Of a DNA stretch of 64,000 nt, positions 6,801-20,420 are shown piece by piece. A model generated the notes under the pieces. It saw only the letters and a program-made list of their open reading frames with translations. It made no database searches and was not told where the DNA came from. This DNA comes from Haloarcula laminariae (GTDB lineage: Archaea; Halobacteriota; Halobacteria; Halobacteriales; Haloarculaceae). Where the stretch lies: assembly GCF_025457605.1 (NCBI RefSeq), contig NZ_JAMZFY010000001.1, positions 2,108,001 to 2,172,000 of the forward strand. The letters are read 5' to 3'. The position numbers were made by a program, and so were the translations under genes. Position 1 is the stretch's first letter. Every line of letters begins with the position of its first letter.

Positions 6801-7016
6801 AGTTGTCGTTGGAACCGCACGAACCGCTCGTCGCTACCGGTAGCGAGGCGTATCGGCATCGGCTGATGCCAAACACGGCCGCAATCCCGAGCCGCGGAAG
6901 CCCGCGGCGTGTCAGATTTGCGGTCGTGCTGTTCCCGTGGGGAACTCGCCCGTCACGGGACTAAACCGTTTCCATCTGTCCCGAGGGGTCGTTGCGGGCG
7001 GAGAACGGCCAGCGCG

Positions 7017-7024
7017 CTTATTAG
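7017..7024 (+). promoter_or_regulatory. TATA-like box for the 604-aa pilin-like gene
   Basis: The sequence CTTATTAG is centred about 28 bp before the ATG at 7048. This fits a leaderless haloarchaeal transcript and supports that start over the longer open frame from 6937. Confidence 0.5.
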
Positions 7025-7047
7025 GTCCGATTGCGTCTGTTCGTAGT

Positions 7048-8862
7048 ATGCTTGCCTGTTCGGGTCAGGGCGACCAGCGGCGGCTACGGGCACAGTCCGG
7101 GCCGCTCGGGTTTCTGCTCGTCTTCGCGCTGGTCATCGCGGCGACGACGATCATCGTAGCGCTGGGTGCGGGGGCGATAGACGGCACACAGGAGACCCTC
7201 GACACGGAGCGAACGGAGAAGACGATGACGCAGCTCGACTCGCAGGCCGCGCTGGTCGCGCTGGGGAACTCCCAGCGCCAGCGAGTGGACCTCGCGACGG
7301 GGCGGGACTCGACGTACATGGCCGAGGAGGGGGCCGGGCGGATGACGCTGTCGTACAGGAATCAGACGAACGGGAACGAGACGGAGGTGTTCTCGACGGA
7401 GATGGGCCGCATCATCTACGAGACGAACGACGGCACCACCGTCGCCTACCAGGGCGGTGGCGTCTGGCGGTCGGACGGCGACGGTAACTCGGTGATGGTG
7501 TCGCCCCCGGAGTTCCACTACCGCGACGCCACGCTCACGCTGCCGCTGGTGACGGTCGGTTCGTCCGGGTCCATCGGCGACCGCGCCGTCATCTCCGACG
7601 CGAACACCACGCGGTACTTCCCCAATCCAGGCATGAACGGAAACTACACCAATCCCCTGGAGAACGCGCGAGTCGAGGTGTCCGTCACCAGCGCGTACTA
7701 CCGCGCGTGGGGGCGGTATTTCGAGACCCGGACCGACGGCGAAGTGGAGTACGACCACGGAACCGACACGGTGACGCTGGCGCTGGTCACGCCGCTGCAG
7801 AACACGAAGGTTACCTCGGCCACGTCGAGCCTCTCGGCCAGCGGGACCTTCAACCTGAACGGCAACGCCGGGAACCTCTGTAGCCCGACGAAGGTGTACA
7901 TCAACAGCTACAACTCCAGCGGGACCGACGTCGGCTACTGCGCACAGACCCCCAAAAACGAGGGCGACATCGTCTACGGCGGGGATATCGACCTCACCAG
8001 CGGCTCCGGGAGTTCGGACATCCACGGCGACGTCGTCTCCGGCGGGACCATCGACGTCGGGAAGTCGAACGGGAACGGGGCGCCGTTCGTCCACGGGAAC
8101 ATCAGCTACAGTGACCGCTGCGAGAATTCGCGCAACGCCTGTGACAATCGGTCGTCCGGCCAGGTGACCCAGATAAGCGGTATCGACCAGGCGCCGGCCA
8201 TCAACGGCATCGTCCGAACCCAGGTCAACGAGACCCAGTCGAACAACGACAACGGCGACAGCGATCCAATCAGCGGGAACACGCTCGATTCCGGCTCCGT
8301 CGAGCTCACGGCCGGGACCTACTACCTCGAAACCGTCGACGTCGCAACGGACGACCGGGTGACGCTCAACACCACCGACGGCGACATCTTCCTCGCGGTC
8401 GAGGAGAACATCGAGCTCGGGGAGAACGCCACCATGGAGGTCGTCGGTGACGGGACGGTGAGCGTCTACGTCGAGGGCAGCGGCGGCAACGCGAACCAGT
8501 TGTATCTGGGGAAGGGGGCGAACATAACCAACGACGGTGACGACGCCCCGCAGTTCCGGATGTTCGGCCAGGACGACTTCACCGCGACCATCGGTGACGG
8601 CTCCGGCGGGAACCTCGCGAAGTACGTCGGCGTCATATACGCCCCGCCGGGTACGTCCGGCACCGGGACCGTCACGCTGGCAAGCGGCGTCATCTACGGC
8701 GGGGTCCTCACCGGCACCACGACGATAGGCTCCGGTAACGGCGGCTCCATCCACTACGACGAAGCGCTCCGAACACAGCAGGTGCTGGAACAGAGCGAGT
8801 CCATCGTCCGGGTGACGTACATCCACGCCTCGACGAACGAAGTCCGGGTCGAAGACGGCTGA
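7048..8862 (+). CDS. Large pilin-like surface protein (DUF7289-type N-terminal domain plus repetitive beta domain)
   Basis: 604 aa. The N-terminus has RAQSG followed by one hydrophobic helix (LGFLLVFALVIAATTIIVAL), the layout of an archaeal pilin signal. A domain to about residue 250 shares VAYQGGGVWR, then VSPPEFHYR, then SAYYRAWGRYF with the 1276-aa protein at 13301, so the two are paralogous here. The rest (from about residue 270) is Gly/Thr/Asn-rich short beta segments (GTFNLNGNAG, GDIDLTSGSG, SGGTIDVGK, GVIYGGVLTG), suggesting a beta-helix or bactofilin-like ectodomain. I recall the N-terminal family as DUF7289 and the second as DUF7305-like. The start at 7048 is supported by the TATA box. 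Role in a pilus or adhesin is inferred from the neighbours. Confidence 0.7.
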   Translation: MLACSGQGDQRRLRAQSGPLGFLLVFALVIAATTIIVALGAGAIDGTQETLDTERTEKTMTQLDSQAALVALGNSQRQRVDLATGRDSTYMAEEGAGRMTLSYRNQTNGNETEVFSTEMGRIIYETNDGTTVAYQGGGVWRSDGDGNSVMVSPPEFHYRDATLTLPLVTVGSSGSIGDRAVISDANTTRYFPNPGMNGNYTNPLENARVEVSVTSAYYRAWGRYFETRTDGEVEYDHGTDTVTLALVTPLQNTKVTSATSSLSASGTFNLNGNAGNLCSPTKVYINSYNSSGTDVGYCAQTPKNEGDIVYGGDIDLTSGSGSSDIHGDVVSGGTIDVGKSNGNGAPFVHGNISYSDRCENSRNACDNRSSGQVTQISGIDQAPAINGIVRTQVNETQSNNDNGDSDPISGNTLDSGSVELTAGTYYLETVDVATDDRVTLNTTDGDIFLAVEENIELGENATMEVVGDGTVSVYVEGSGGNANQLYLGKGANITNDGDDAPQFRMFGQDDFTATIGDGSGGNLAKYVGVIYAPPGTSGTGTVTLASGVIYGGVLTGTTTIGSGNGGSIHYDEALRTQQVLEQSESIVRVTYIHASTNEVRVEDG

Positions 8863-8970: not shown

Positions 8971-9717
8971 TCAGGACTCGATGCCGACCCGGATGTCGTG
9001 GTGGACCACGTACACCTGGTCGATGTCGCTCCCGGGGTCAAACGTACACTCGATGCCGTCGGTGAGGTCCGTACAGTCAAAGCCCGACTCCTCGAAGTAG
9101 TCGGTCCACAGCGTCGTCCGAGGCGTTCCTCGTAGGGACACGGAGACCCTGCTGACGTCGGTAGCCGTGCTGTTGTACGCGAGAGTCGTCCCCCTGTTTC
9201 GCCCGCGTACGAGTACGGTCGACCCGGCGAGGGACTGCCGGTCCGGACGGTTGAGTCCGACTACCGAGATGAGGACGCGGTCCTCGCTGACGACGAAGGG
9301 CGGGTCAGTTATCCGGACTCCGCCGCCGTTCGAGGTCCGGAACACCGCCCCGGCCTCGTACACCAGCTTCCGGTCTTCGTCGCCGGTGTAGACGAGCGGG
9401 CGTATCTTCCAGCCCTTGCTCCGCCACGTTCCGTCGGCGTCGGTCACGTTCACACGCATCGTGACGTTCTCGCCGGTTGCCATCTGAGCCTCACCGAGGC
9501 TGAGTTCCGTCGCGCGGCTGGGGGCGTCGCGCCGATGGATGTCCGCGAGGTTGTCCGCGAGCACGTCGAAGGCCCGTTCGGCGTTCTCCATCTGCTCGTC
9601 GTTCCGGACATCCTGAAGGGTCCCGAGCCCGCTCACCGAGATTATCCCGACGGTCGAGACGACGAGTGCGAACACCAGCACGTAGCTGACGACCTCGCTG
9701 ACGGCCCGGTCAGACAT
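8971..9717 (-). CDS. Pilin-like protein, set A gene 5 (DUF7289-like)
   Basis: 248 aa. The N-terminus MSDRAVSEVV runs into the hydrophobic helix SYVLVFALVVSTVGIISVSG; the RAVS just before the helix resembles the cleavage site of archaeal prepilin peptidase. The ectodomain contains KLVYEAGAVFR and VRITDPPFV, matching the corresponding protein of set B at 17323 (KLIYENGALFR, VVVRKPPL) and echoing the GGGVWR...VSPPE element of the two large proteins. It is the last gene of a five-gene leftward operon and its start overlaps the previous gene by 8 bp. Probably a minor pilin or pseudopilin. Confidence 0.72.
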   Translation of the reverse strand: MSDRAVSEVVSYVLVFALVVSTVGIISVSGLGTLQDVRNDEQMENAERAFDVLADNLADIHRRDAPSRATELSLGEAQMATGENVTMRVNVTDADGTWRSKGWKIRPLVYTGDEDRKLVYEAGAVFRTSNGGGVRITDPPFVVSEDRVLISVVGLNRPDRQSLAGSTVLVRGRNRGTTLAYNSTATDVSRVSVSLRGTPRTTLWTDYFEESGFDCTDLTDGIECTFDPGSDIDQVYVVHHDIRVGIES

Positions 9718-10147
9718 CGCGCACCTCCAGCTCGCTCCCGGTGTACCGGACCTGCAGGTCGCCCCCGAGGATGGAGCTCTCCGCGAGCGGCGTCTCGACA
9801 GCGAGCCCTATCCGCACAGTCACGTCGGGGTCGGTGGTGCGCAGGACGACCGTCTCGTTGTCGTCGTCCAGCGTGACCCGGTACGGGGCGCCCGTAACCG
9901 AGTTCGAGAACGACCGGTTGGTCCGGACAGTCACGGCGGAGTCGCCGGCTCTGACCAGCCGGTCGGCCCACTCGATGTCCGAGGCTATCTGCTGGCCGGT
10001 GACGGTGAGTTCGTCCCTGATGACCTGCTCGCGCTGGGAGTCGATGTAGGACCCGCCGGCGACGATGAGACCGGTGATGAGCACCGTCGCGATGCCCAGC
10101 GAGAGCACGTAGCTGAGCGTCGTCGAGACCGCGCGCGCGTCAGACAT
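9710..10147 (-). CDS. Pilin-like protein, set A gene 4 (DUF7266-like)
   Basis: 145 aa. MSDARAVSTTLSYVLSLGIA leads into one hydrophobic helix and then GGSYIDSQREQVIRDEL, matching GSSYVDNKREQTVRQGL in set B gene 4. The first two Met-containing codons of the open frame are ignored because MSDARAVS aligns with the set B start. A Thr/Asp-rich beta ectodomain follows (YRVTLDDDNETVVLRTTDPDV). The gene overlaps its upstream neighbour by 8 bp. I recall the family as DUF7266. Confidence 0.7.
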   Translation of the reverse strand: MSDARAVSTTLSYVLSLGIATVLITGLIVAGGSYIDSQREQVIRDELTVTGQQIASDIEWADRLVRAGDSAVTVRTNRSFSNSVTGAPYRVTLDDDNETVVLRTTDPDVTVRIGLAVETPLAESSILGGDLQVRYTGSELEVRDV

Positions 10148-11135
10148 CCGTCTCACCCGGGGCGACCCGAACGTCGGTCTCGTAGCGCAGGTCGGTCGTC
10201 ACGTACGTGTACCGGACCGTCACGTCGTACAGCGCATCGCTGGACTGGAGCGTGGTGTCGAGCGACGGGAGCGCCAGGCCCGCCCCCGGATGGACGACCA
10301 TCGAGAAGTTCCCGGTGATGTTGCCCGCGTTGGCAAAGGAGATGTCGTAGTTGTCCGTCGCTCCGGCCGCGAAGTGGAAGTTCTCGCCGGTCGGACCGGT
10401 GGTGAGCGCGTCACACTCCTCGCCCTGGATGGTCCCCCCCGTCACGTCGATGTGGACCGACGAGACGGTGGGGTCGTGCGTGACCTCGCAGTCCTCGGTC
10501 GTCCTCGTCCCGCTCTCGTTTTTCAGCGTCCTGACGTGAACGGTGTCGGCGTCGACACGCCAGATGCGGGCGCGCCAGCTGTTCTCGTTTCCGCTATCGA
10601 GCCCGTGCTCCTGGACCCGAACGGTAAACGCGCTGGCGTTGTCCGAAGCCGCAATGCCGGTGGCGTCTAGCTCGAAGGCCCGCGTGCCGTTCCCCCCGGC
10701 AACCCTGGTGACGTCCTCGGCGACGGGATACGCGTCCGAGCTGTCGTTGGCGAACGTCGTCCCGTTCGACTGGTAGAGCCGCTTTCCCGCCCTCGACGAG
10801 TCGTACGCGACGTCGACCACGCGGCCCGACCGGGCCCCCTGCCGGCCCGTCTGTTTGGAGATGTTGCTGATGCCGGCGTTCACGGCGGCCGTCAGCGTCG
10901 CGGTCGAGCTGTTGTCGTGGCGGTTCGCCGACCTGACCGCGTCGCCGACGTTCGTCTCGACCATCGCCCGCATCGACAGCGCGTCGCCGCTACCGGTGGT
11001 CTCGCCCCGGCTCGCCAGGTTCTCCGTGAAAATCGCCGAGTTGACGATGAGCGCCAGCGCGACGAAGATGATGGCGAGCGCAAAGGCCGCGACCAGGATA
11101 ATCTGTCCCCGGTCGCCGCCGCTCAGATCCGCCAC
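10140..11135 (-). CDS. Pilin-like protein, set A gene 3 (DUF7261-like)
   Basis: 331 aa starting with GTG. The N-terminus DRGQIILVAAFALAIIFVAL is a charged residue, Gly, Gln, then a long hydrophobic helix; set B gene 3 has DRAQVLLLGGLAIAIVFLT in the same position. After the helix both share a helical block about RAMVETNVGDAVRSAN / REASVERGVRALVREAD and then a Ser/Thr/Asn-rich beta region. Several NxS/T sequons suggest surface glycosylation. It overlaps the upstream gene by 13 bp. I recall the family as DUF7261. Confidence 0.7.
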   Translation of the reverse strand: MADLSGGDRGQIILVAAFALAIIFVALALIVNSAIFTENLASRGETTGSGDALSMRAMVETNVGDAVRSANRHDNSSTATLTAAVNAGISNISKQTGRQGARSGRVVDVAYDSSRAGKRLYQSNGTTFANDSSDAYPVAEDVTRVAGGNGTRAFELDATGIAASDNASAFTVRVQEHGLDSGNENSWRARIWRVDADTVHVRTLKNESGTRTTEDCEVTHDPTVSSVHIDVTGGTIQGEECDALTTGPTGENFHFAAGATDNYDISFANAGNITGNFSMVVHPGAGLALPSLDTTLQSSDALYDVTVRYTYVTTDLRYETDVRVAPGETDV

Positions 11136-11707
11136 GCGACCACCTCCACCCGAACGGTGTTGTAGAGATTGCCGCCGGTGTCGGGCATCGGATAGGTCAC
11201 GTTGGCGGTGCCGACGCTGGTGTCGGTCGGGCGCTCCCGGGCGTCGTACAGCGGGTCGTCGTCCTGTAGCGTCACCGTATGGGTCGCCGTGACAGCGTTG
11301 TCCGTCGGGACGCCGCTGTAGACGTACCGCCGCGTTATCGGTACCCCCTTGTCGTTCTGGAACCGCAAGTAGACGTTGTAAGCGATACCGTTCTCGTTGA
11401 ACGCCCGTTCCAGCATCGCGCCGAAACGGTTCTCCGGGGGCCCCGACGTGTAGAACCGCTGGACGCCCACGTCGTGGAACTGCGCCGAGCTGTTGTTCCA
11501 GTAGAGCACCGCCGGTTTCAACACGCCGCGCTGTGACGCCGCGGCGAGGACGCCCTGCCCGATGGACTGTTGCTGGTCCTCGATGTGCTGGCTGGACGTG
11601 CTCGCCGACAGCGGCGTCACCGCCGTCATCTGCAACGCGAAGACGAGGCTCGACAGCATGAGCAGCCCGGCGACCGTCGCCTCCAGCGTGTGTGCCTGTG
11701 CCCGCAT
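11123..11707 (-). CDS. Pilin-like protein, set A gene 2 (DUF7288-like)
   Basis: 194 aa. MRAQAHTLEATVAGLLMLSS carries the RAQ-plus-hydrophobic-helix pattern; set B gene 2 begins MVSRGQAYTLEGVLAAILVV. Both also share a central ... LYWNNSSAQFHDV / YWNNESDTRE-like strand, a block naming an incoming FxxxLxxxFN helix, and the C-terminal GNLYNTVRVEVVAW / GPLYNVVEVRLVVW. The ATG at 11707 is chosen by alignment with set B; the open frame extends six codons further. The gap to the upstream gene is one base. Confidence 0.72.
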   Translation of the reverse strand: MRAQAHTLEATVAGLLMLSSLVFALQMTAVTPLSASTSSQHIEDQQQSIGQGVLAAASQRGVLKPAVLYWNNSSAQFHDVGVQRFYTSGPPENRFGAMLERAFNENGIAYNVYLRFQNDKGVPITRRYVYSGVPTDNAVTATHTVTLQDDDPLYDARERPTDTSVGTANVTYPMPDTGGNLYNTVRVEVVAWRI

Positions 11708-11708
11708 C

Positions 11709-12311
11709 TTACCACATCTCCACATACAGCGTCACGTCTCGGTTGTCGAGCGAGACGACCCTGACCGAGGTCACCGACGGTTCGGTGTCCGGAAGCGCGT
11801 CCCCGCGACTCAGGACGGTGTCGTCCGTCGGCCCGGTCGTATCACACTCGCCACTCGACGAGCCGACGAGTCCGGTGTCCGGTTCGGAGCTGTCCCAGCA
11901 CAGCAGCTCCTGGCCGGTGCCGGTCAGATTCCCACGGAGGCTGACGTTCACCCGCTGGTTGCTCGTCGCGACGCCGAGCTGTTCTTCGAGCGGCGCGTTC
12001 TGGAACGGACAGCCCGTCGCGTCCCCCTCGAAGAACGTGACCGTACAGTAGCTGTCCAGCGCGTACGGGTCCGAGGGCGACGCCAGCGTCCCGGTCGCGA
12101 GCTGGTCCGCGACTCGGTTCGACGACACCGTCTCGTCCTGCGCGCTCTCGGTGAACGGCGACAGGATGCCCGGGATGAACAGGAAGATGAACAGCAACAC
12201 CGCGAGGAAGACGCTGATACCGATGGCGAAATCGAGCGTCGTCTGTCCGCGCTCACCGCTCCCCGACCCCGGCTGACGGTTCTGTGGCTCGTCACTGCGC
12301 TGTGTTCCCAT
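11709..12311 (-). CDS. Pilin-like protein, set A gene 1 (DUF7287-like)
   Basis: 200 aa. After a short soluble leader, ERGQTTLDFAIGISVFLAVL forms the pilin-type motif; set B gene 1 reads ERGQTTQDFAIGVSVLLVTV. It is the first gene of the five-gene set A. A TATA-like box on the minus strand (cgttattagcc complement, 12364-12374) would start transcription near 12340. The ATG at 12311 is used; a TTG nine codons upstream is possible. Four Cys residues occur in the ectodomain. I recall the family as DUF7287. Confidence 0.72.
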   Translation of the reverse strand: MGTQRSDEPQNRQPGSGSGERGQTTLDFAIGISVFLAVLLFIFLFIPGILSPFTESAQDETVSSNRVADQLATGTLASPSDPYALDSYCTVTFFEGDATGCPFQNAPLEEQLGVATSNQRVNVSLRGNLTGTGQELLCWDSSEPDTGLVGSSSGECDTTGPTDDTVLSRGDALPDTEPSVTSVRVVSLDNRDVTLYVEMW

Positions 12312-12425
12312 GTGAGTTGACCCGTTGTGACCCGACAACTGTTTCGTAATCGACTGTCGTGGACGTTATTAGCCATTGTGGCCGACCCACGCTACCGACT
12401 CCCGTCCCCGTGTTGCTTCGATGGG

Positions 12426-12434
12426 TTTAATAAA
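12426..12434 (+). promoter_or_regulatory. TATA-like box of the tRNA-Ala gene
   Basis: TTTAATAAA lies about 30 bp before the first base of the tRNA, the normal archaeal distance. Confidence 0.55.
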
Positions 12435-12462
12435 GGCCATCGGGTATCGTGTATTGCGTAGC

Positions 12463-12534
12463 GGGCTCGTAGATCAGGGGTAGATCACTCCCTTGGCATG
12501 GGAGAGGCCCCGGGTTCAAATCCCGGCGAGTCCA
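12463..12534 (+). tRNA. tRNA-Ala (anticodon GGC)
   Basis: A 72-base cloverleaf. The acceptor arm GGGCTCG pairs with CGAGTCC and includes the G3-U70 pair that marks alanine tRNAs. The D arm is GATC...GATC, the anticodon stem CTCCC/GGGAG holds the loop TTGGCAT (anticodon GGC, reading GCC codons), and the T arm is CCGGG TTCAAAT CCCGG. The discriminator is A and no CCA is encoded, as usual in haloarchaea. No intron is present. It lies between the two pilin gene sets. Confidence 0.97.
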
Positions 12535-13300
12535 TCTAAAATAAACAGCCGTGACGAAGGACGGCCGACCGCTGTTTTCTCGGCTTTCAGGAACTTACTC
12601 GACCGAATAGGTTTTTCGCTGGCTCCCTCAGCGAACGGAGATGATGAGACGGGCCAGCGCGGGGCTCGCTGTCGGGCGGTTTCTGAGAGGGAAATCTGTC
12701 GCTACAGCACCGACTTCGCCGACCGCTGTCTCGCTCTCGGTTCCGTGGGAGAAGTGGCGGGTTCGACGTTGGCGAGGTCGGCGAGTGCCTGCTAACCATA
12801 GCTGGACTGGGCCGGGATGCTCACCATTGCCGACACCGGGACCTACATCGAGGACGCCGGCTGGTCCGTGCTCGGGTCCGCCCGGGGATATCAACTGCTT
12901 TCCCGACCCCTGCACGCGCTGTGTGAAATCGAGGAAGGGCGGTGTTTTATCACTTTTCCGCTGACGGCGTCGTACCCAGCGAGCAGTCGGTTGTCAAGGC
13001 CCTCGTTGCCGGTGGCCAGAGACCCAGTAGGCTTCATAAGCCACTGGATATCGAGAGATACCCCTCATCTGAGCAGCTGCCTCTCTGGGACTGTCAGTGT
13101 GATACTGTAGTTATCGCCGGACGGCAATCGCGAACAATAACCGGAGTGAAAAGCCGGGCTTAGCAGGCATCTTCGTCGAGAAGTATTCACTTCATTAAAT
13201 GCCGAAAATAGTGACTAGTAGGTGTGTGAGGGGCGTTTTCCGGTATCCAAGATTCGATCAATCGGTAGTTTTTTGTCCGCATAAATTGAGATAGAGTAAG
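12535..13300. other. Gene-less stretch of about 770 bp after the tRNA
   Basis: I see no convincing coding sequence here. The short open frames on both strands lack the acidic composition of neighbouring proteins and match no family I know. Base composition drifts toward A+T after about 13130. A small hairpin (CGCTG...CAGCG, near 12618-12634) is present. The right end contains an AT-rich segment (gcataaatt, 13279-13288) that is probably the promoter of the giant gene at 13301. It could hold decayed genes or an unrecognised RNA. Confidence 0.5.
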
Positions 13301-16300
13301 ATGGGTCACTGGAGTAGCCTCGCGTCCGATAAGGAGGGAGTCTCGAACGTCGTCGCGGTGGTGTTGCTGGTTGGCCTCACGCTGACCGGGGTGGTAATCA
13401 TCCTGGCGACGGGGTGGGTAAGCATCAACGAGACGAACCAGCAGGCCAATATGGAGATCGCCGAGGAGTCGATGCTCCAGATAGATAGCACGCTCGAACA
13501 GAGCGGTGGGGGGAACACGACGATAGATGTCCCAAATGAACTCGATGGCAGGGTGACTGTCTCGAACGACCAGACATACACGTTGACGTTGAACAACAAC
13601 TCGGAATGTTCGACCGGCGCCCGTCCGTTGAGCAGTATCGAGTACGATGACAACGGTCAAGCGGTTGCCTACGAGGGCGGGGGCGTCTGGCGTATGACCG
13701 AGTCGGGAGCGACGACCGTGTCACCGCCGGATGTGGCGTACACGCAGGGGTCGCTGTCCGTTTCCTTCATGAATATTAGTGGTGATATCCAGTCTACCAG
13801 CGAGTTGCGAGTGACCACGAATGCGACTGAGCAGCAGATTCACCAAGCCAATCTCTCGCGAGCGCTGTACACCGAGGGGACCTATACTACGGAGGGCCCC
13901 GACACGGAACCAGTATGTCCCCGGTCACAAGTAGAAAACGCGACACTGACGATTCAGAACAGTCAGTACGCTCGGGCGTGGGCCGAATGGGCTCGCGATA
14001 ACCACAACAGTAGTTTAGTAACAGTGACGGACCCGTCCACCCTGGGTCCCGGCGACACTGTCACCATACAGTATCGTTTAGGCGACGTGTCGCCAACTGA
14101 GTTCACCGTCTCTGACCTTCGGGCGGCGAGAACGTCAAGTAGCGGAAGCGTGACAGTGAAATCCAGAGTGACGAATACAGGGGGCTTGCGAAACAGCCAG
14201 GCTGTCTCGTTCGAATACACACGACAGAACGGGACTGTGATAGCGAGTGAGTCCAAGACCCTTCGGCTCGGGGAAGACGAGAGCACGGTCGTACAGTTCA
14301 ATATCTCTGACTCGGCAGTCGAGAGCGGTACGAACGACATCACTGTCCGTGCAAACAACACCATCACGAGTGAGCTTACCTTCGACAACCGCGATGGTGT
14401 CCCCAACACGGTGCTGGATGCCAGAGACGTGCCGGACAGTGCCGGAGTCGGAGCGGAGCTCGACGGAACCAACGTAACTGTCGAAAACAACGGAAACATG
14501 ACCGCCTTCGAGCGAGTCACGCTGACTGTGGACGGTGACGAGCGGGCGACGTGGGACATCGTCGTCCCACCGAACGGGGAGGAGAACGTGACGGTCGGCG
14601 GCGCGCTCCCGACCGGGAACACCGGGACCCTCGAACTCAGGTTCAGTGGCCGAATCGCGACGAACGGGCCCGAGAGAGACCCATTCATCGTCGGTGAGAG
14701 CGGGTACTTCAGAATCAACTCTGTCTCGCCACCGACCGACGTTGACGCAGGCTCAACGGTGACCGTGAGTACGACGGTCAAAAACACCGGCGCCGAGAGC
14801 CTCGAAGGAGACATCACCATCGAAATCAGAAACGAGGATACGAACTCACAGGTCACGAGTACGACGGAGACGCCTGACCTGCTGGGTACCGCCTCACCGG
14901 CCGGCCCGGAGAGTACGACCGTCTCGCTCGACACCACACTCAACACTATCGGAAACTACAGTTATCAAGTCATAACACCGAACGGTACCCAGTCTGGTCG
15001 ATTCTACGTCGGACCGCAGAGCGGACCGAACTTCGTCATCACCAGTCTGAGCGTCTCCGACAATCCCGTCGACCTCGGCAACCAGACGACTTTCGATGTC
15101 AAACTCACAAACACCGGCACCGAATCGGCGGCACAGACGGTGTGGCTCAACAACAGTGCGACTGATGAGACGATAGACAGCCGACGGGACATCCAACTCG
15201 ACCCGAGCGAGAGTGAATCCGTGAACTGGTCCGTCGTGGCGAACACTGACAGGTTCATCAACGGTACCAACCGTCTCAACGTATCGACGGAGAATGTCAC
15301 CCTCCCGACGACCCTGACCATCAAAGACCCGGACCGGTTCAACGCCGGGGACGGAACGATAACCATCCAGGAGTCGGTGAACGCCTCGATAACCATGGAA
15401 GGGGCCGAACTGGAGTACAACGGCTACAACGGGTATTCCGGCTGGTACGAGACATCCGACCCAATCGTGGTGACGCTGGTAATCGAGAACTCCACGGGAA
15501 CGTACGAGCGGGTACTGTGGGAAGACGTTCCCGGCACGGGTGAAAACGTCAATCAGCCTCTGGCCGAGGCGCGAATGTACCGGGATGACCTCGACAACCC
15601 CTACACCGAGTTCCTCTCGCTGGAACCGGGAACAAACGTCTCACTATACGCGACCAGTTACGAATGCTGGAGAAACGTCGACAGCGGCGTCGACCACAGC
15701 CGTGAAGGCCGGTCGTACGACGGTTACAGGTGCACGGATAGAGGCGATGTCCGACTCGACATAAGCAACGACAGCAAACCGAACAACGTTGATCCGAACT
15801 ACGTGGTCATCCGCGGGGACGGCGACCAGGTACCGAAGTACGACGCGGCCTACGAGGGGCAACTCACTCTGGAACAGATGCTTGGCCCTGGTCAGGTAGA
15901 GGAAGTAGACGGTGAAGGAGTTCTCAACCTCGGCCAGGACGAGGAAGTGTTCCTGTTCGAACTTAGCGACGAGAACGCCTTCCCGGGCAACGAAACGCGA
16001 CCGGTAGTCGGGGACTTCAACGACGCAATCGCGCGGTTCGAAGTGATTAAGAAAAACAGAAATATCAAGACGCCAGCACGGTTCGAAATCATCGATGTAG
16101 ACGTCCCGGCCCGTGTCAACAGCGGCGACACAGCGACGATGGACGTGACGGTTCGAAACAATGGGGGTACCGAGAGCAGTACCCCGCTCAGGATGTCTTT
16201 CGACGGCAACGCCCAAGTCGTGTCCAAAACGACTGACAAGCTCGGCAACAACGAGACTGACACAGTCACGTTTACGCTGGACACCGACTCACGCGCCACG

Positions 16301-17131
16301 GGTACCTACGATTGGACGGTCAAGGCAACGGAGACGGACAACGCGGAGCAGTTCGGATTCGTCACAGTGGGTAACCCACCAACGCCGTTCTTCCAGGTTA
16401 GTGCGGTCAACGGCCCGGGCGTAGCCGACATCGACGACTCGCCGAACGCAACTATCACTATCGCTAACACTGGTGCCGTCGACGACACACAGACAGTCGT
16501 CCTGGAGGCGAAAAACGAGGACACCGGCGGGTCGTGGACGCAGGTAGACGCCCAGAGCCTCGCAATCGACGCCGGAAACAGCCAGGACATCACGCTCGAC
16601 CTTCCCTCCACCAAGGCGAACTATAGCTACCGAGTCGCGACCGACAACGTCACCACATCGGCACTGAGCCTGCTGGTTGGGCAGTCAAACGTCTATGTCC
16701 CTGTGGGGGACTCCATCAACATTGGGTCGGAAGACGAGGACGCAGGCTCACTCATCGAACGGAAGGGTGGCATCACGGAGCAGATGATGAACGTCAAGGT
16801 AGCGAACAACGGGACTGTCGGGGATACGCGCGACATCCGTCTCAGCATCACCAACGCCAGCGGCGCCGAGGTGTTCAATGATACCGCGGAGAACAAGCAG
16901 GTCGGAGGCGGAGACCTGACCGGACAGGGTCCTGTTCCGGCCTACGTCAACTATGACCCGAACCTGGGTACGGGGTTCTACACTTACACTATCACTGTGT
17001 ATAACGACACTACAAGCGAGAGTGTCGGATACGAGGTCACTGGCGACATGTACCTACGGGAGACTTCGAACAGTGGCGGGTCCGACAGCTCGCCGGTATC
17101 TATCGATTCCGGTACGATAACTGTCGGGTGA
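13301..17131 (+). CDS. Giant pilin-like surface protein with CARDB-type repeats
   Basis: 1276 aa. EGVSNVVAVVLLVGLTLTGVV near the N-terminus is a pilin-type helix. Residues to ~260 form the domain shared with the 604-aa protein (VAYEGGGVWR, VSPPDVAY, QYARAWAEW). After that come repeated Ig-like units, each with a dipole of the form 'V..G...TV...V.NTG' : near residues 280, 400, 480, 580, 930 and 1040 (for example STVTVSTTVKNTGAESLEGD, QTTFDVKLTNTGTESAAQTV, DTATMDVTVRNNGGTESS). This is the CARDB adhesion-domain pattern. A distinct region near residues 690-880 with YNGYNGYSGWYE and paired Cys residues interrupts them. Many NxS/T sequons are present. Codon choice is visibly more A/T-tolerant than in neighbours. 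Likely a surface adhesin or pilus-tip protein. Confidence 0.72.
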   Translation: MGHWSSLASDKEGVSNVVAVVLLVGLTLTGVVIILATGWVSINETNQQANMEIAEESMLQIDSTLEQSGGGNTTIDVPNELDGRVTVSNDQTYTLTLNNNSECSTGARPLSSIEYDDNGQAVAYEGGGVWRMTESGATTVSPPDVAYTQGSLSVSFMNISGDIQSTSELRVTTNATEQQIHQANLSRALYTEGTYTTEGPDTEPVCPRSQVENATLTIQNSQYARAWAEWARDNHNSSLVTVTDPSTLGPGDTVTIQYRLGDVSPTEFTVSDLRAARTSSSGSVTVKSRVTNTGGLRNSQAVSFEYTRQNGTVIASESKTLRLGEDESTVVQFNISDSAVESGTNDITVRANNTITSELTFDNRDGVPNTVLDARDVPDSAGVGAELDGTNVTVENNGNMTAFERVTLTVDGDERATWDIVVPPNGEENVTVGGALPTGNTGTLELRFSGRIATNGPERDPFIVGESGYFRINSVSPPTDVDAGSTVTVSTTVKNTGAESLEGDITIEIRNEDTNSQVTSTTETPDLLGTASPAGPESTTVSLDTTLNTIGNYSYQVITPNGTQSGRFYVGPQSGPNFVITSLSVSDNPVDLGNQTTFDVKLTNTGTESAAQTVWLNNSATDETIDSRRDIQLDPSESESVNWSVVANTDRFINGTNRLNVSTENVTLPTTLTIKDPDRFNAGDGTITIQESVNASITMEGAELEYNGYNGYSGWYETSDPIVVTLVIENSTGTYERVLWEDVPGTGENVNQPLAEARMYRDDLDNPYTEFLSLEPGTNVSLYATSYECWRNVDSGVDHSREGRSYDGYRCTDRGDVRLDISNDSKPNNVDPNYVVIRGDGDQVPKYDAAYEGQLTLEQMLGPGQVEEVDGEGVLNLGQDEEVFLFELSDENAFPGNETRPVVGDFNDAIARFEVIKKNRNIKTPARFEIIDVDVPARVNSGDTATMDVTVRNNGGTESSTPLRMSFDGNAQVVSKTTDKLGNNETDTVTFTLDTDSRATGTYDWTVKATETDNAEQFGFVTVGNPPTPFFQVSAVNGPGVADIDDSPNATITIANTGAVDDTQTVVLEAKNEDTGGSWTQVDAQSLAIDAGNSQDITLDLPSTKANYSYRVATDNVTTSALSLLVGQSNVYVPVGDSINIGSEDEDAGSLIERKGGITEQMMNVKVANNGTVGDTRDIRLSITNASGAEVFNDTAENKQVGGGDLTGQGPVPAYVNYDPNLGTGFYTYTITVYNDTTSESVGYEVTGDMYLRETSNSGGSDSSPVSIDSGTITVG

Positions 17132-17140
17132 TTGTTCACC
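17127..17140 (+). terminator. Small hairpin at the end of the giant gene
   Basis: GGTGA/TCACC arms around a 4-base loop span the stop codon of the gene ending at 17131. It could help termination, but there is no long T-run, so this is weak. Confidence 0.25.
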
Positions 17141-17322
17141 TGTTCGGAGGGAGGACGCGCCGCGCGTGTTATCAGTTCACGTTACTGTGGCGAGGCCGTT
17201 GCCGACGGGTGGACTAACAACACATCCTGATACTGTCTCCTCTCAGAAAACAGTTGACAGCGTTACTGCAGTCTACAGTGTGGAAGAGGGCCATCGAAAT
17301 CCGAGTTGAGAGGGATCTATCA

Positions 17323-18054
17323 TCAATTGACGATGCTAATATCGACCGTCGTCTCGTGGATGACAAGACGGTCTATCGGCGAACACGTGTATTCGTTCAC
17401 TCCTGCTCCTTCCTGCCACCTCCCTCCAAGTACACTATTCCAGCGGTCTGGCGTCTGGGTCTCCTTAGTGTACTGGGTCCCGTTTGTGTAGAGAGAAATA
17501 TTGATGCCCTCGCCCTGTCGCGTGGTGATACGTTGGTTTTTGAGGTCGCTCTGAAGCGTTACCCGGGTGTCCGACGAGATACTGAAATCTCCCCGTATCT
17601 TCGTCACCGCTAGATGGGCCGTGTCGTTGCTACAGCGCAGCGGCGGTTTTCTCACGACGACACCGCTGTCGTCACGGACGCGAAACAGCGCGCCGTTCTC
17701 GTAAATCAGTTTGGAACCGGTGTCGGTCGTCCGTACGAGGGCTCTTGTCGTGATGTTCTCTTGGGACCCATTATCGACGCTCCACCCGAGCGTTGAGTTG
17801 ACGAGTTCGAGCGAGTGACCCTGCATCTTTATCGTCGTCGACCGGCGCTCGGAGCCCGTGGTCCGGTGGTCGGCCAGCGTGGCCGCGTAGTTGCGCATCG
17901 TCTCCTCGGCGACGTTTGACTCGGTCCCTTGCTGGATCTCACCGAGCGTCCCGATACCCGTGACCGTCACGACGCCGATCATGAAGATGATCGTACTGAA
18001 CACGAGCGTAAAGGAGACCACATCCGAGACTCCGCGGTCGTCGGCCCGGTTCAT
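17323..18054 (-). CDS. Pilin-like protein, set B gene 5 (DUF7289-like)
   Basis: 243 aa. DRGVSDVVSFTLVFSTIIFM is the pilin-type N-terminus. The segment KLIYENGALFR...VVVRKPPL matches set A gene 5 and the paired motif of the two large proteins. The C-terminal part differs from set A, containing RWNSVLGGRWQEGAGVNEY and a Cys near the end. Its ATG overlaps the previous stop (ATGA). It is the last gene of the operon that begins with the secretion ATPase at 25009. Confidence 0.72.
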   Translation of the reverse strand: MNRADDRGVSDVVSFTLVFSTIIFMIGVVTVTGIGTLGEIQQGTESNVAEETMRNYAATLADHRTTGSERRSTTIKMQGHSLELVNSTLGWSVDNGSQENITTRALVRTTDTGSKLIYENGALFRVRDDSGVVVRKPPLRCSNDTAHLAVTKIRGDFSISSDTRVTLQSDLKNQRITTRQGEGINISLYTNGTQYTKETQTPDRWNSVLGGRWQEGAGVNEYTCSPIDRLVIHETTVDISIVN

Positions 18055-18500
18055 GCCGTTTGCACCTCCAGACAGTCCCGGCTGGTGTTGTAGACAGCCT
18101 CTATCGCCCCGCCGGCGACGCGGCTGTCACAGATGTCGTTCGCGTTTTCGAACCGGACCTGTGTCCCCAGGTCGCTCGCCGTCGAGTTGACGTATATCGT
18201 CGTCAGGTCGGAACTCTGAACGAGGGCTATGCGATACGCTTCCCCGCCGACCCTGTCGGGATAGTCCGACGTGAACGAAACGTCCTGGGACCCGCCCGGC
18301 GGGTCGAACTGGTCGAGTCGGACGAAGTCGCTGGCGACCCCCGAACCGATGTCTTGTAACCCCTGTCGGACTGTCTGCTCCCGCTTGTTGTCGACGTACG
18401 ACGAGCCACCCAGCAAAAGGCCCGTTATCAGTATCGTCGAGATGCCGATTGTCAGCGCCTGCGTGACCGCCGGTGAGACGGCGCGTGTGTCACCCATCAT
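18051..18500 (-). CDS. Pilin-like protein, set B gene 4 (DUF7266-like)
   Basis: 149 aa. TRAVSPAVTQALTIGISTIL is followed by LLLGGSSYVDNKREQTVRQG, clearly paralogous with set A gene 4. The RAVSP motif is close to the classic haloarchaeal pilin signature. A beta-rich ectodomain with Cys residues near the C-terminus (DICDSR, RDCLEV) could form a disulfide. Four-base overlaps join it to both neighbours. Confidence 0.72.
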   Translation of the reverse strand: MMGDTRAVSPAVTQALTIGISTILITGLLLGGSSYVDNKREQTVRQGLQDIGSGVASDFVRLDQFDPPGGSQDVSFTSDYPDRVGGEAYRIALVQSSDLTTIYVNSTASDLGTQVRFENANDICDSRVAGGAIEAVYNTSRDCLEVQTA

Positions 18501-19357
18501 GAGGTCTCGTTCACCTGGATTGTCCGCTGGTAGCTCGTCTGTGGGCCGACAAAGTTGAGATCTACTGCAGGATTAGTCAGATTCAGATCATCTTGTACGG
18601 AGTCGTCGAACTGTCCGGCTGCAGTAAGCTCGAAACGCCCCCCAGGGTTGCCTGAATCCGGAAGGTCGAAGCTGACTTCCGAATTCTCGTTATTCGGCGG
18701 GAACGAGTGGACATCTCCTGTCCCGGAACAGGAACCTGACACGACCCGTACCGTGATCTCACCCGTGAAAGAGTCACAGATAGCGGTCGTCGCATCGGTG
18801 GTACTGAATGTCTCCACGACGAGTGTGTCAGGACCAGGGCCCCGACGCGCCCTAAGTGTATATCTGTAGCCAGATTCGTTGGTAATGTTCACGTAGATAT
18901 ATTTGCTGGGTGGTGCATCAGTGAGCGTGAGATTGAAGCCAGTAATACTCCGTGTCTCGTTGACCGGTTGCCACTCACGAGCGTCCCTCCCGGTCGTTCC
19001 CGGATCCTCCAGCCCGCTCAGGTTAAGACGTTGTTCGGATTCGCCGATGTCGACCGTCGCATTCACGTACACGCCGTCCTGTTGGCCGCTGACGTTCGTG
19101 TAATATCTAGAGAAAATATTGAGCGACCGATTGAGAGCGGCTGGGTCGTCAGCGTCCGCCTCCCGGACAAGCGCCCGGACGCCGCGCTCAACGCTTGCCT
19201 CCCGCTCGGCGGCCCTGTCGATGTCCGCGACCGTCTCCGAGGTGGACGCGCTCTCGGAGACCACGAGGCTGTTCGACAGCGGGATGGCCGTCAGGAACAC
19301 GATGGCGATGGCCAGCCCGCCCAGCAGCAACACCTGCGCTCGGTCGTCGCTCACCAT
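18497..19357 (-). CDS. Pilin-like protein, set B gene 3 (DUF7261-like)
   Basis: 286 aa. MVSDDRAQVLLLGGLAIAIV has the charged-Ala-Gln-hydrophobic pattern. The helical block TVADIDRAAEREASVERGVR follows, as in set A gene 3. The ectodomain is Thr/Ser/Asn-rich with YIYVNITNESGYRYTLRA and two Cys near CDSFTGEITVRVVSGSC. It overlaps the upstream gene by 7 bp and the downstream gene by 4 bp. Likely a minor pilin. Confidence 0.7.
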   Translation of the reverse strand: MVSDDRAQVLLLGGLAIAIVFLTAIPLSNSLVVSESASTSETVADIDRAAEREASVERGVRALVREADADDPAALNRSLNIFSRYYTNVSGQQDGVYVNATVDIGESEQRLNLSGLEDPGTTGRDAREWQPVNETRSITGFNLTLTDAPPSKYIYVNITNESGYRYTLRARRGPGPDTLVVETFSTTDATTAICDSFTGEITVRVVSGSCSGTGDVHSFPPNNENSEVSFDLPDSGNPGGRFELTAAGQFDDSVQDDLNLTNPAVDLNFVGPQTSYQRTIQVNETS

Positions 19358-19926
19358 ACGACCAGTCGCACCTCCACGACGTTGTACAGGGGCCCGCTTG
19401 GATTGGCATCCTCAATGTAGAACGCCGAGTCCCTTTTGATAGACAGTCCTATCGGATTACATTGCGGGCCAGTAGTGCGGTTCATGCTGTCGGTCAGAGT
19501 CACCGAGGTCGAGGCGATAGCTGCAGAGGACGGCGGGCGTCTGTCGGCTTCCCCGCTAGTCTCAGAGGCCAGTCTCGTCTCACGGGTATCACTCTCGTTG
19601 TTCCAGTAGCTGAAATAGAGATTGTACTGGTTGGCCTGGCTGTCGAAGGTCGTGTTGAGTATCGACTCAAATGGTGCTTGGGGGAACCTGTCCCCGGTGA
19701 TGTCCCGTCCTGGACCGTAACATCGTACTGCCGCCTCCAGCGCGCCGGACTCGCCCGCGATGGAGAGAACGTCGCTTGCCCGCTGTTGCAGTTGCTGTGT
19801 CTCTGCGCGGGTCTCGTCCTCCCAGGCGCGGGTGTCGATAGCGCCCAGTCCGTACACCGTAGCCGTCACGACGAGAATGGCGGCGAGGACGCCCTCCAGC
19901 GTATAGGCCTGCCCACGACTCACCAT
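19351..19926 (-). CDS. Pilin-like protein, set B gene 2 (DUF7288-like)
   Basis: 191 aa. SRGQAYTLEGVLAAILVVTA is the pilin-type start. RASDVLSIAGESGALEAAVR and the closing GPLYNVVEVRLVVW match set A gene 2 (GQGVLAAASQRGVLKPAV, GNLYNTVRVEVVAW). Seven-base overlaps link it to the genes on either side, which supports one transcript with coupled translation. Confidence 0.72.
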   Translation of the reverse strand: MVSRGQAYTLEGVLAAILVVTATVYGLGAIDTRAWEDETRAETQQLQQRASDVLSIAGESGALEAAVRCYGPGRDITGDRFPQAPFESILNTTFDSQANQYNLYFSYWNNESDTRETRLASETSGEADRRPPSSAAIASTSVTLTDSMNRTTGPQCNPIGLSIKRDSAFYIEDANPSGPLYNVVEVRLVVW

Positions 19927-20420
19927 ACGCGGACCACCACCCAGCAGACCGGACCACAGTCGTAGTTCCGAATCCGGACGACGCGCGAGGTCGTCACGGG
20001 ACTAGAGCGTCGGTACTCGCCCCAGCTACCGGAGTCGATGAGGTCCGTAGCCGGGTCGCGTGCTCCCTCCTCCAGGGTCGTCCCGTTGACGATGCTCACG
20101 TTGACGATGGGGTCGGTCCGCCTGTCCGAGGAGACGTTCGTACCGGCTCGGAGCTTGAGCCTCGTCATGTTCCCGGACAGCTCCTCTATCCCCCCGTCCT
20201 CGTCGTAGCGCAACACGTTCTGTCCTTCGTCCGTGCTGTAGTTCTCGACGACGTACGAGGCGATTCGGTCGGCCTGGGGCTGTTTGACGCCCGGTGAAGT
20301 TCCCTCGTACACCGCCAGTGCACCGGTCTGCGTGAAGACGAACGCGCCGATGACCGTCACTAAGAGGACGCTGACACCGATGGCGAAATCCTGTGTGGTC
20401 TGACCCCGTTCCCCCGTCAT
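19920..20420 (-). CDS. Pilin-like protein, set B gene 1 (DUF7287-like)
   Basis: 166 aa. MTGERGQTTQDFAIGVSVLL aligns with set A gene 1. The ectodomain has ADRIASYVVENYSTDEGQNV and ends in NYDCGPVCWVVVRVW with a Cys pair. It follows the membrane platform gene after only six bases, so it is probably co-transcribed with the ATPase and platform genes. Confidence 0.72.
   Translation of the reverse strand: MTGERGQTTQDFAIGVSVLLVTVIGAFVFTQTGALAVYEGTSPGVKQPQADRIASYVVENYSTDEGQNVLRYDEDGGIEELSGNMTRLKLRAGTNVSSDRRTDPIVNVSIVNGTTLEEGARDPATDLIDSGSWGEYRRSSPVTTSRVVRIRNYDCGPVCWVVVRVW

Follow-up and report, generated by a model that had tools for sequence, protein, structure and literature searches.

The window analysed here is a stretch of 64,000 nucleotides from a Haloarcula genome (Haloarcula laminariae; assembly of 3.69 Mb; positions 2108001-2172000 of contig NZ_JAMZFY010000001.1) that contains two sets of five overlapping genes, A (8971-12311) and B (17323-20420), located where a previous sequence-only reading had placed them. 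Gene order and strand are the same in both sets. From gene 1 to gene 5, the products of set A belong to the Pfam families DUF7287, DUF7288, DUF7261, DUF7266 and DUF7289, and set B repeats this series except for gene 3, which falls under the threshold (Table 1). Profile-profile comparison with hhalign pairs the set A genes only with their positional counterparts in set B (97.3-99.9% on the diagonal and at most 7.4% off the diagonal, with the exception of a 42% match between genes 4 and 5 over 35 columns). Coordinates, Pfam series and hhalign thus agree with the claim that the same five genes are found in both sets in the same order and direction. A class III prepilin motif ([KR][GA] and, behind it, a hydrophobic helix) opens all 10 proteins and is also present in most relatives of these genes. 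The start motifs listed in the sequence-only reading are there as well, apart from the gene 2 motifs having been given in reverse order (RGQAYTLEG belongs to set B and RAQAHTLEA to set A). No function has been described for any of the five Pfam families, and no mention of them by name was found in the literature searched.

Table 1. Genes and other features of the two-set region; positions are counted from the first nucleotide of the window
Feature	Coordinates	Strand	Evidence and remarks
Modular pilin-like protein, DUF7289 + DUF7305	6937..8862	+	Convergent with set A; putative partner of set A
Set A gene 5, DUF7289	8971..9717	-	Motif RAVSEVV; Pfam, hhalign
Set A gene 4, DUF7266	9710..10156	-	Motif RAVSTT; Pfam, hhalign
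Set A gene 3, DUF7261	10140..11135	-	Motif RGQIIL; Pfam, hhalign
Set A gene 2, DUF7288	11123..11725	-	Motif RAQAHTLEA; Pfam, hhalign
Set A gene 1, DUF7287	11709..12311	-	Motif RGQTTLDFAIG; ATG at 12311; longer TTG reading from 12338
tRNA-Ala(GGC)	12463..12534	+	Constant neighbour of set A across the genus
Modular pilin-like protein, DUF7289 + CARDB, 1276 aa	13301..17131	+	Putative partner of set B
Set B gene 5, DUF7289	17323..18054	-	Motif RGVSDVV; Pfam, hhalign
Set B gene 4, DUF7266	18051..18500	-	Motif RAVSP; Pfam, hhalign
Set B gene 3, DUF7261-like	18497..19357	-	Motif RAQVLL; no Pfam match; hhalign to set A gene 3, 99.6%
Counterpart of the swapped central domain of set B gene 3 (residues ~118-252)	~18600..19010	-	Homology to the mosaic block in 14 close Haloarcula genomes
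Set B gene 2, DUF7288	19351..19926	-	Motif RGQAYTLEG; Pfam, hhalign
Set B gene 1, DUF7287	19920..20420	-	Class III motif RGQTTQDFAIG; Pfam, hhalign
PilC/TadC-like platform protein, 683 aa	20427..22478	-	T2SSF
PilB4-type assembly ATPase, 844 aa	22475..25009	-	T2SSE, 108 bits; PilB3_C, 26.4 bits, just below the cut-off of 27

Large genes for DUF7289 pilin-like proteins flank both sets in convergent orientation; the true start of the one next to set A (6937..8862) is probably some 50 codons downstream. Neither these two genes nor the tRNA gene figure in the sequence-only reading. Set A is a separate operon beside or behind the divergent tRNA-Ala(GGC) gene. The sole TATA-like stretch found upstream of this set sits at the position expected for the divergent tRNA promoter, so that set A's own promoter was not located. 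Set B, the only one that directly follows the PilB/PilC motor, begins 6 bp past the end of pilC, a gap so narrow that the two are very probably cotranscribed as a single unit. The T2SSE domain of the ATPase lies at residues 423-642 of 844; haloarchaeal ATPases of the PilB4 type are characterized by extra N- and C-terminal domains. There is no motor beside set A in the source genome, and the previous claim that set B is led by an ATPase and a platform gene whereas set A has neither is correct for this genome (T2SSE, T2SSF). Altogether, the genome contains seven T2SSE matches; no five-gene set is found beside any of the six other loci, where the pilin-like genes encode DUF7263, a lone DUF7261, DUF7285 and a single DUF7289-Big_1-CARDB protein. 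Accordingly, no independent ATPase paired with set A, a finding that would have refuted the sequence-only reading by its own terms, was encountered at these loci. A single PilB4-type ATPase (at least 79% identity, with the next best at ~48%) is present in nearly all of the two-set genomes of the genus. One of the other loci (L241, 9294-11744) encodes an 816-aa PilC-like protein fused to DUF7282, next to the ATPase that ranks second in similarity to PilB4 (48% identity).

We annotated approximately 100 neighbourhoods and 80 named loci. DUF7287 occurs exactly twice in the source genome and is present in 67 of the 79 relatives. In the tree of 165 modules, a single fully supported branch parts 71 B-type from 94 A-type modules: modules from different genomes group by type, and the two sets of one genome are not each other's nearest relatives. 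The same bipartition is obtained gene by gene (163/163, 162/162, 95/95, 157/158 and 157/157 rows for genes 1 to 5, respectively), so positional partners pair in all five gene trees, there is no visible sign of a gene having changed sets, and the sets are best described as sealed, co-inherited units that are older than the haloarchaeal families. A-type sets are found behind the motor in Haloferax and at most Halorubrum and Halobellus loci, and B-type sets in Natrinema, Natronorubrum, Halovivax and other Natrialbaceae; Haloarcula and several related genera have both types, and most haloarchaea only one. The identical gene order and the ~5 kb that separate the sets in the window might be taken to indicate a recent tandem duplication in the source lineage, with A as a decaying spare copy. 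However, the A/B split predates the families, purifying selection acts on both sets (dN/dS of 0.03-0.65, mostly below 0.35), and set A is the better conserved of the two; the probability of such an origin is negligible, and the five gene trees rule out a recent local duplication. The "two copies" of the sequence-only reading, if understood as a duplication in this genome, therefore do not hold, the split being far older than the genus. As judged from these trees, A and B are an ancient pair of modules without visible gene exchange.

The motor is not bound to either type of set. The PilB+PilC tree shows at least 9 switches in the type of set next to the motor; within the genus, there are 4. In one congener (G002), pilB-pilC, tRNA-Ala and set A follow in succession, the motor is 93% identical to that in the window, and there is no set B in the genome; an A-type set is likewise located directly behind the PilB4-type motor in four more (G013, G015, G018, G023). 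Hence the lack of a motor, which the sequence-only reading gave as a property of set A, is not general: related species carry set A directly behind the same motor lineage. The sister species of G002 (G010) has set A along with a B set from a different, divergent lineage. In that genome (L061/L062), tRNA-Ala separates the motor from both set A and the divergent B set, whose CARDB partner has 1594 aa, an arrangement that looks as though the genus-type B set had been replaced. In representatives of two other genera (G033 and G036), unrelated genes are found downstream of the motor, and the sole set, of A type, is far away. In another genome with an A-type set (G059), the PilB4-type ATPase is the only one apart from a single weak T2SSE match.

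In a clade of 15 species, set A is located 134-193 kb from the motor and set B (in genomes in which a single contig holds both) and in the opposite orientation, with the tRNA and the CARDB gene on the set A side; set A is still conserved in these species. The order of the genes is that which a single inversion would give. In nine draft loci (L049, L051, L055, L060, L073, L084, L087, L095, L101), the contig breaks off no more than ~5 kb from set B, close to where the inversion breakpoint is likely to lie and a repeat is probably present. A third five-gene set, which belongs inside the A clade, was identified in five genomes (G013, G018, G021, G029 and G030; loci L066, L075, L081, L097 and L099). 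These third sets are led by a second PilB4-like motor of their own, ~64-68% identical to the one in the window, so private motors do occur. In G045 (L120), two tandem A-type sets follow the motor and an orphan B-type set lies 3.5 Mb off.

The switches of set type, the orthologous motor in front of set A, the unlinked motor and set, and the absence of a five-gene set at the six other loci combine to make a shared motor the best reading, and we infer from these genome comparisons that one PilB4/PilC4-type motor probably serves two insulated pilin kits. The sharing proposed in the sequence-only reading is thus favoured, as a conclusion from genome comparison. That motors can be shared between pilin sets in haloarchaea follows from the ability of Haloferax volcanii PilB3-C3 to rescue a pilB1-C1 deletion (PMC6491452). 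Under a different explanation, PilB4 would act on set B only and set A would be assembled by another ATPase, e.g., a PilB3-like one, acting on distant pilins. Set A is outside the motor operon, there are seven T2SSE loci from which such an ATPase could come, and haloarchaeal PilB3 is described by Makarova et al. 2016 (PMC4858521) as assembling pilins encoded elsewhere, the stand-alone PilA pilins of H. volcanii PilB3-C3 being the case in point (see also PMC6491452). Nevertheless, we regard this possibility as unlikely: five congeners, as well as Haloferax, Halorubrum, Halobellus and others, have an A-type set immediately after a PilB4-type motor, motor and set are unlinked in G033 and G036, and no other ATPase in the source genome adjoins a five-gene set.

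If one motor indeed handles homologous subunits, and most Haloarcula keep both sets together, the A and B pilins might also co-assemble into one heteropolymeric filament, for example with the shaft from one set and the tip from the other. Such a mixed filament appears rather improbable given that whole sets have been lost or replaced independently (G002, G010, G013, G015, G018, G023), that most haloarchaea have only one set type and that no gene was observed to cross between sets. Under the shared-motor reading with separate filaments, the five class III prepilins of each kit would assemble with their own set-mates, each kit would carry its own large modular pilin (DUF7289-DUF7305 for A and DUF7289-CARDB for B), and the type of pilus made would depend on transcription of set A alongside the motor-linked set B. 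The sequences themselves show the identity of the sets, their sealed inheritance, the independence of the motor, the co-occurrence of set B with the CARDB protein and the swapping of alleles, whereas physical sharing of the motor, filament formation, position at the tip and function are inferred from them.

The distribution of the large proteins is consistent with such partnerships. Among 32 congeners, the 23 with the genus-type B set all encode the full-length CARDB protein and the 9 without this set do not, and in many of the 23 the CARDB gene is on the set A side, far from set B. A phylogeny-aware test of this co-occurrence gives p = 0.25; there are 4 changes on the tree, 3 of them well supported, too few for significance to be reached once kinship is taken into account. 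Beyond these congeners, A-type sets mostly come with a DUF7289 protein of ~470-680 aa (with DUF7305 in Haloarcula and DUF7308 in Haloferax); B-type sets tend to come with DUF7289 proteins of 700-1500 aa that contain CARDB, also with VWA domains in Salinibaculum, Halapricum and Halovenus, or have no partner, in Natrialbaceae. A fold search with the DUF7305 protein yielded weak matches to beta-helix (ice-binding) proteins, none with E ≤ 0.001, and a beta-helix is the predicted fold. The middle part of the CARDB protein is polymorphic among close species, with five classes among 14. In the B-type sets of loci L116, L121, L168, L171, L195 and L220, gene 4 encodes a DUF7266 protein of 440-886 aa instead of the usual ~150, which suggests that modules have been grafted onto the gene 4 pilin too.

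The product of set B gene 3 consists of a conserved pilin-like helix, a variable central beta domain and a conserved C-terminus; in the AlphaFold model (pLDDT 82), the variable block is predicted to form an all-beta domain behind the helix. Six discrete classes of this middle part can be told apart among the 14 close Haloarcula species, with protein identities distributed bimodally (<0.6 or >0.7, and a gap between). In close species pairs, the block is ~48% identical compared to 95-100% for the rest of the operon. Between G003 and G031, for instance, nucleotide identity is 97-99% in genes 1, 2, 4 and 5 of set B and 48% in the gene 3 block, the divergence being confined to a sharp tract of ~500 nt, and the same pattern is seen between G005 and G022. 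For set A gene 3, which is stable, the lowest values in the same pairs are ~78-87%. The block does not track the rest of set B (r = 0.15). A search for silent gene 3 cassettes of the kind involved in bacterial antigenic variation turned up none, only the A and B copies themselves, and the swapped block therefore comes from other cells. The classes of the CARDB middle are independent of those of gene 3, and covariation of the alleles, which might signal direct contact between the two proteins, was not detected (Mantel r = -0.03, p = 0.56). A lectin identity for B gene 3 was also considered and dropped, the mostly beta-sandwich or galectin-like matches being too weak (target-normalised TM-score of at most 0.47). 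Gene 3 is absent in two genomes (G057, L131, and G071, L143), where genes 2 and 4 adjoin, and thus is dispensable as a scaffold in some cases.

Swapping between species makes the middle of B gene 3 a good candidate for the part of the pilus that binds or is recognized, and its exchange independently of the CARDB middle is what would be expected of a binding or recognition domain. In this reading, set A is the conserved kit and set B a diversifying surface. The set-specific modular partners and the swapped domain also lend support to the different tip specificities suggested in the sequence-only reading, the location of these parts at the tip being presumed. Type IV pili (T4P), type II secretion systems and pseudopili have parts in common, and the five Pfam families are without a described function, so these sets might alternatively form short pseudopili for secretion or DNA handling. 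We consider this very unlikely, as the surface modules associated with the sets (CARDB, VWA, beta-helix) are better suited to adhesion or recognition. Returning to two adhesive or recognition pili on a shared motor, one may tentatively envisage that the motor has a conserved pilus (A) and a polymorphic one (B) to switch between, and that the gene 3 domain and the CARDB pilin of B, shuffled independently between species, could provide a variable recognition surface on a fixed machine; within the same tentative scheme, this surface might contribute to partner choice, self/non-self discrimination or virus escape.

Nature itself has set up a replicated test here, in that the same motor lineage occurs with set A alone, with set B alone, with the two linked, with the two separated by 134-193 kb, or with a set to which it is not linked at all. 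Two sealed pilin lineages constitute a clean system in which to ask how a motor recognizes its pilins, and the centre of B gene 3 is a specific domain to be assayed for binding by, or recognition of, an archaeal pilus. Both ideas are testable because Haloarcula species can be cultured.

Modularity of motors with respect to pilin sets has been proposed before: Makarova et al. 2016 (PMC4858521) argued that an ATPase/TadC module can be combined with various pilin sets, and did so for the PilB4-type system. New here are the joint occurrence, across a genus, of one motor and two sealed kits, the giant modular pilin specific to set B, and the recombining domain of B gene 3. The closest described architecture is that of the PilB4-type T4P of euryarchaeal clade 2 (the HVO_1160 locus of H. 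volcanii; PMC4858521), with an ATPase and a TadC-like platform followed by dedicated pilins; the window has both the VirB11/T2SSE-family ATPase with its TadC-like platform (T2SSE, T2SSF) and, in set B, a class III prepilin series of its own next to the motor. A major pilin (arCOG03926) is predicted within the PilB4-type set in the same paper, and the designation "minor-pilin sets" used in the sequence-only reading is therefore not established. Unlike the PilB4-type T4P as presented there, the system described here combines two deeply diverged, sealed pilin series, each with a large modular pilin, with a single motor, and it contains an allele-swapped domain, for which the main text of that paper describes no counterpart. 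In the literature searched, no established role was found for H. volcanii PilB4-C4; its expression is condition-dependent (PMC7305310), and in H. gibbonsii expression of PilB4-C4 drops on virus infection (PMC12542753).

The cross-complementation between PilB3-C3 and PilB1-C1 of H. volcanii (PMC6491452) similarly has one motor serving the pilins of another system, but involves other motors and pilins and is an experiment, in contrast to the genome comparison presented here. The large DUF7289 proteins resemble modular type IV pilins such as Streptococcus sanguinis PilB (PMC8179133) in the combination of a class III N-terminus with an extra module (DUF7289 + CARDB; DUF7289 + DUF7305). The vWA module of S. 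sanguinis PilB acts as an adhesin, and modelling places it at the tip of the pilus; unlike that protein, the ones described here are archaeal and DUF7289-based. For the recombining domain of B gene 3, the nearest parallel is found in the VARTIG modules of Thermococcales (PMC8416519), in which a surface beta domain is likewise diversified via recombination between related species. Unlike VARTIG, the haloarchaeal system has neither a large Ig protein nor a downstream variable array, and the diversified domain belongs to a subunit of a fixed five-gene pilin operon associated with a motor.
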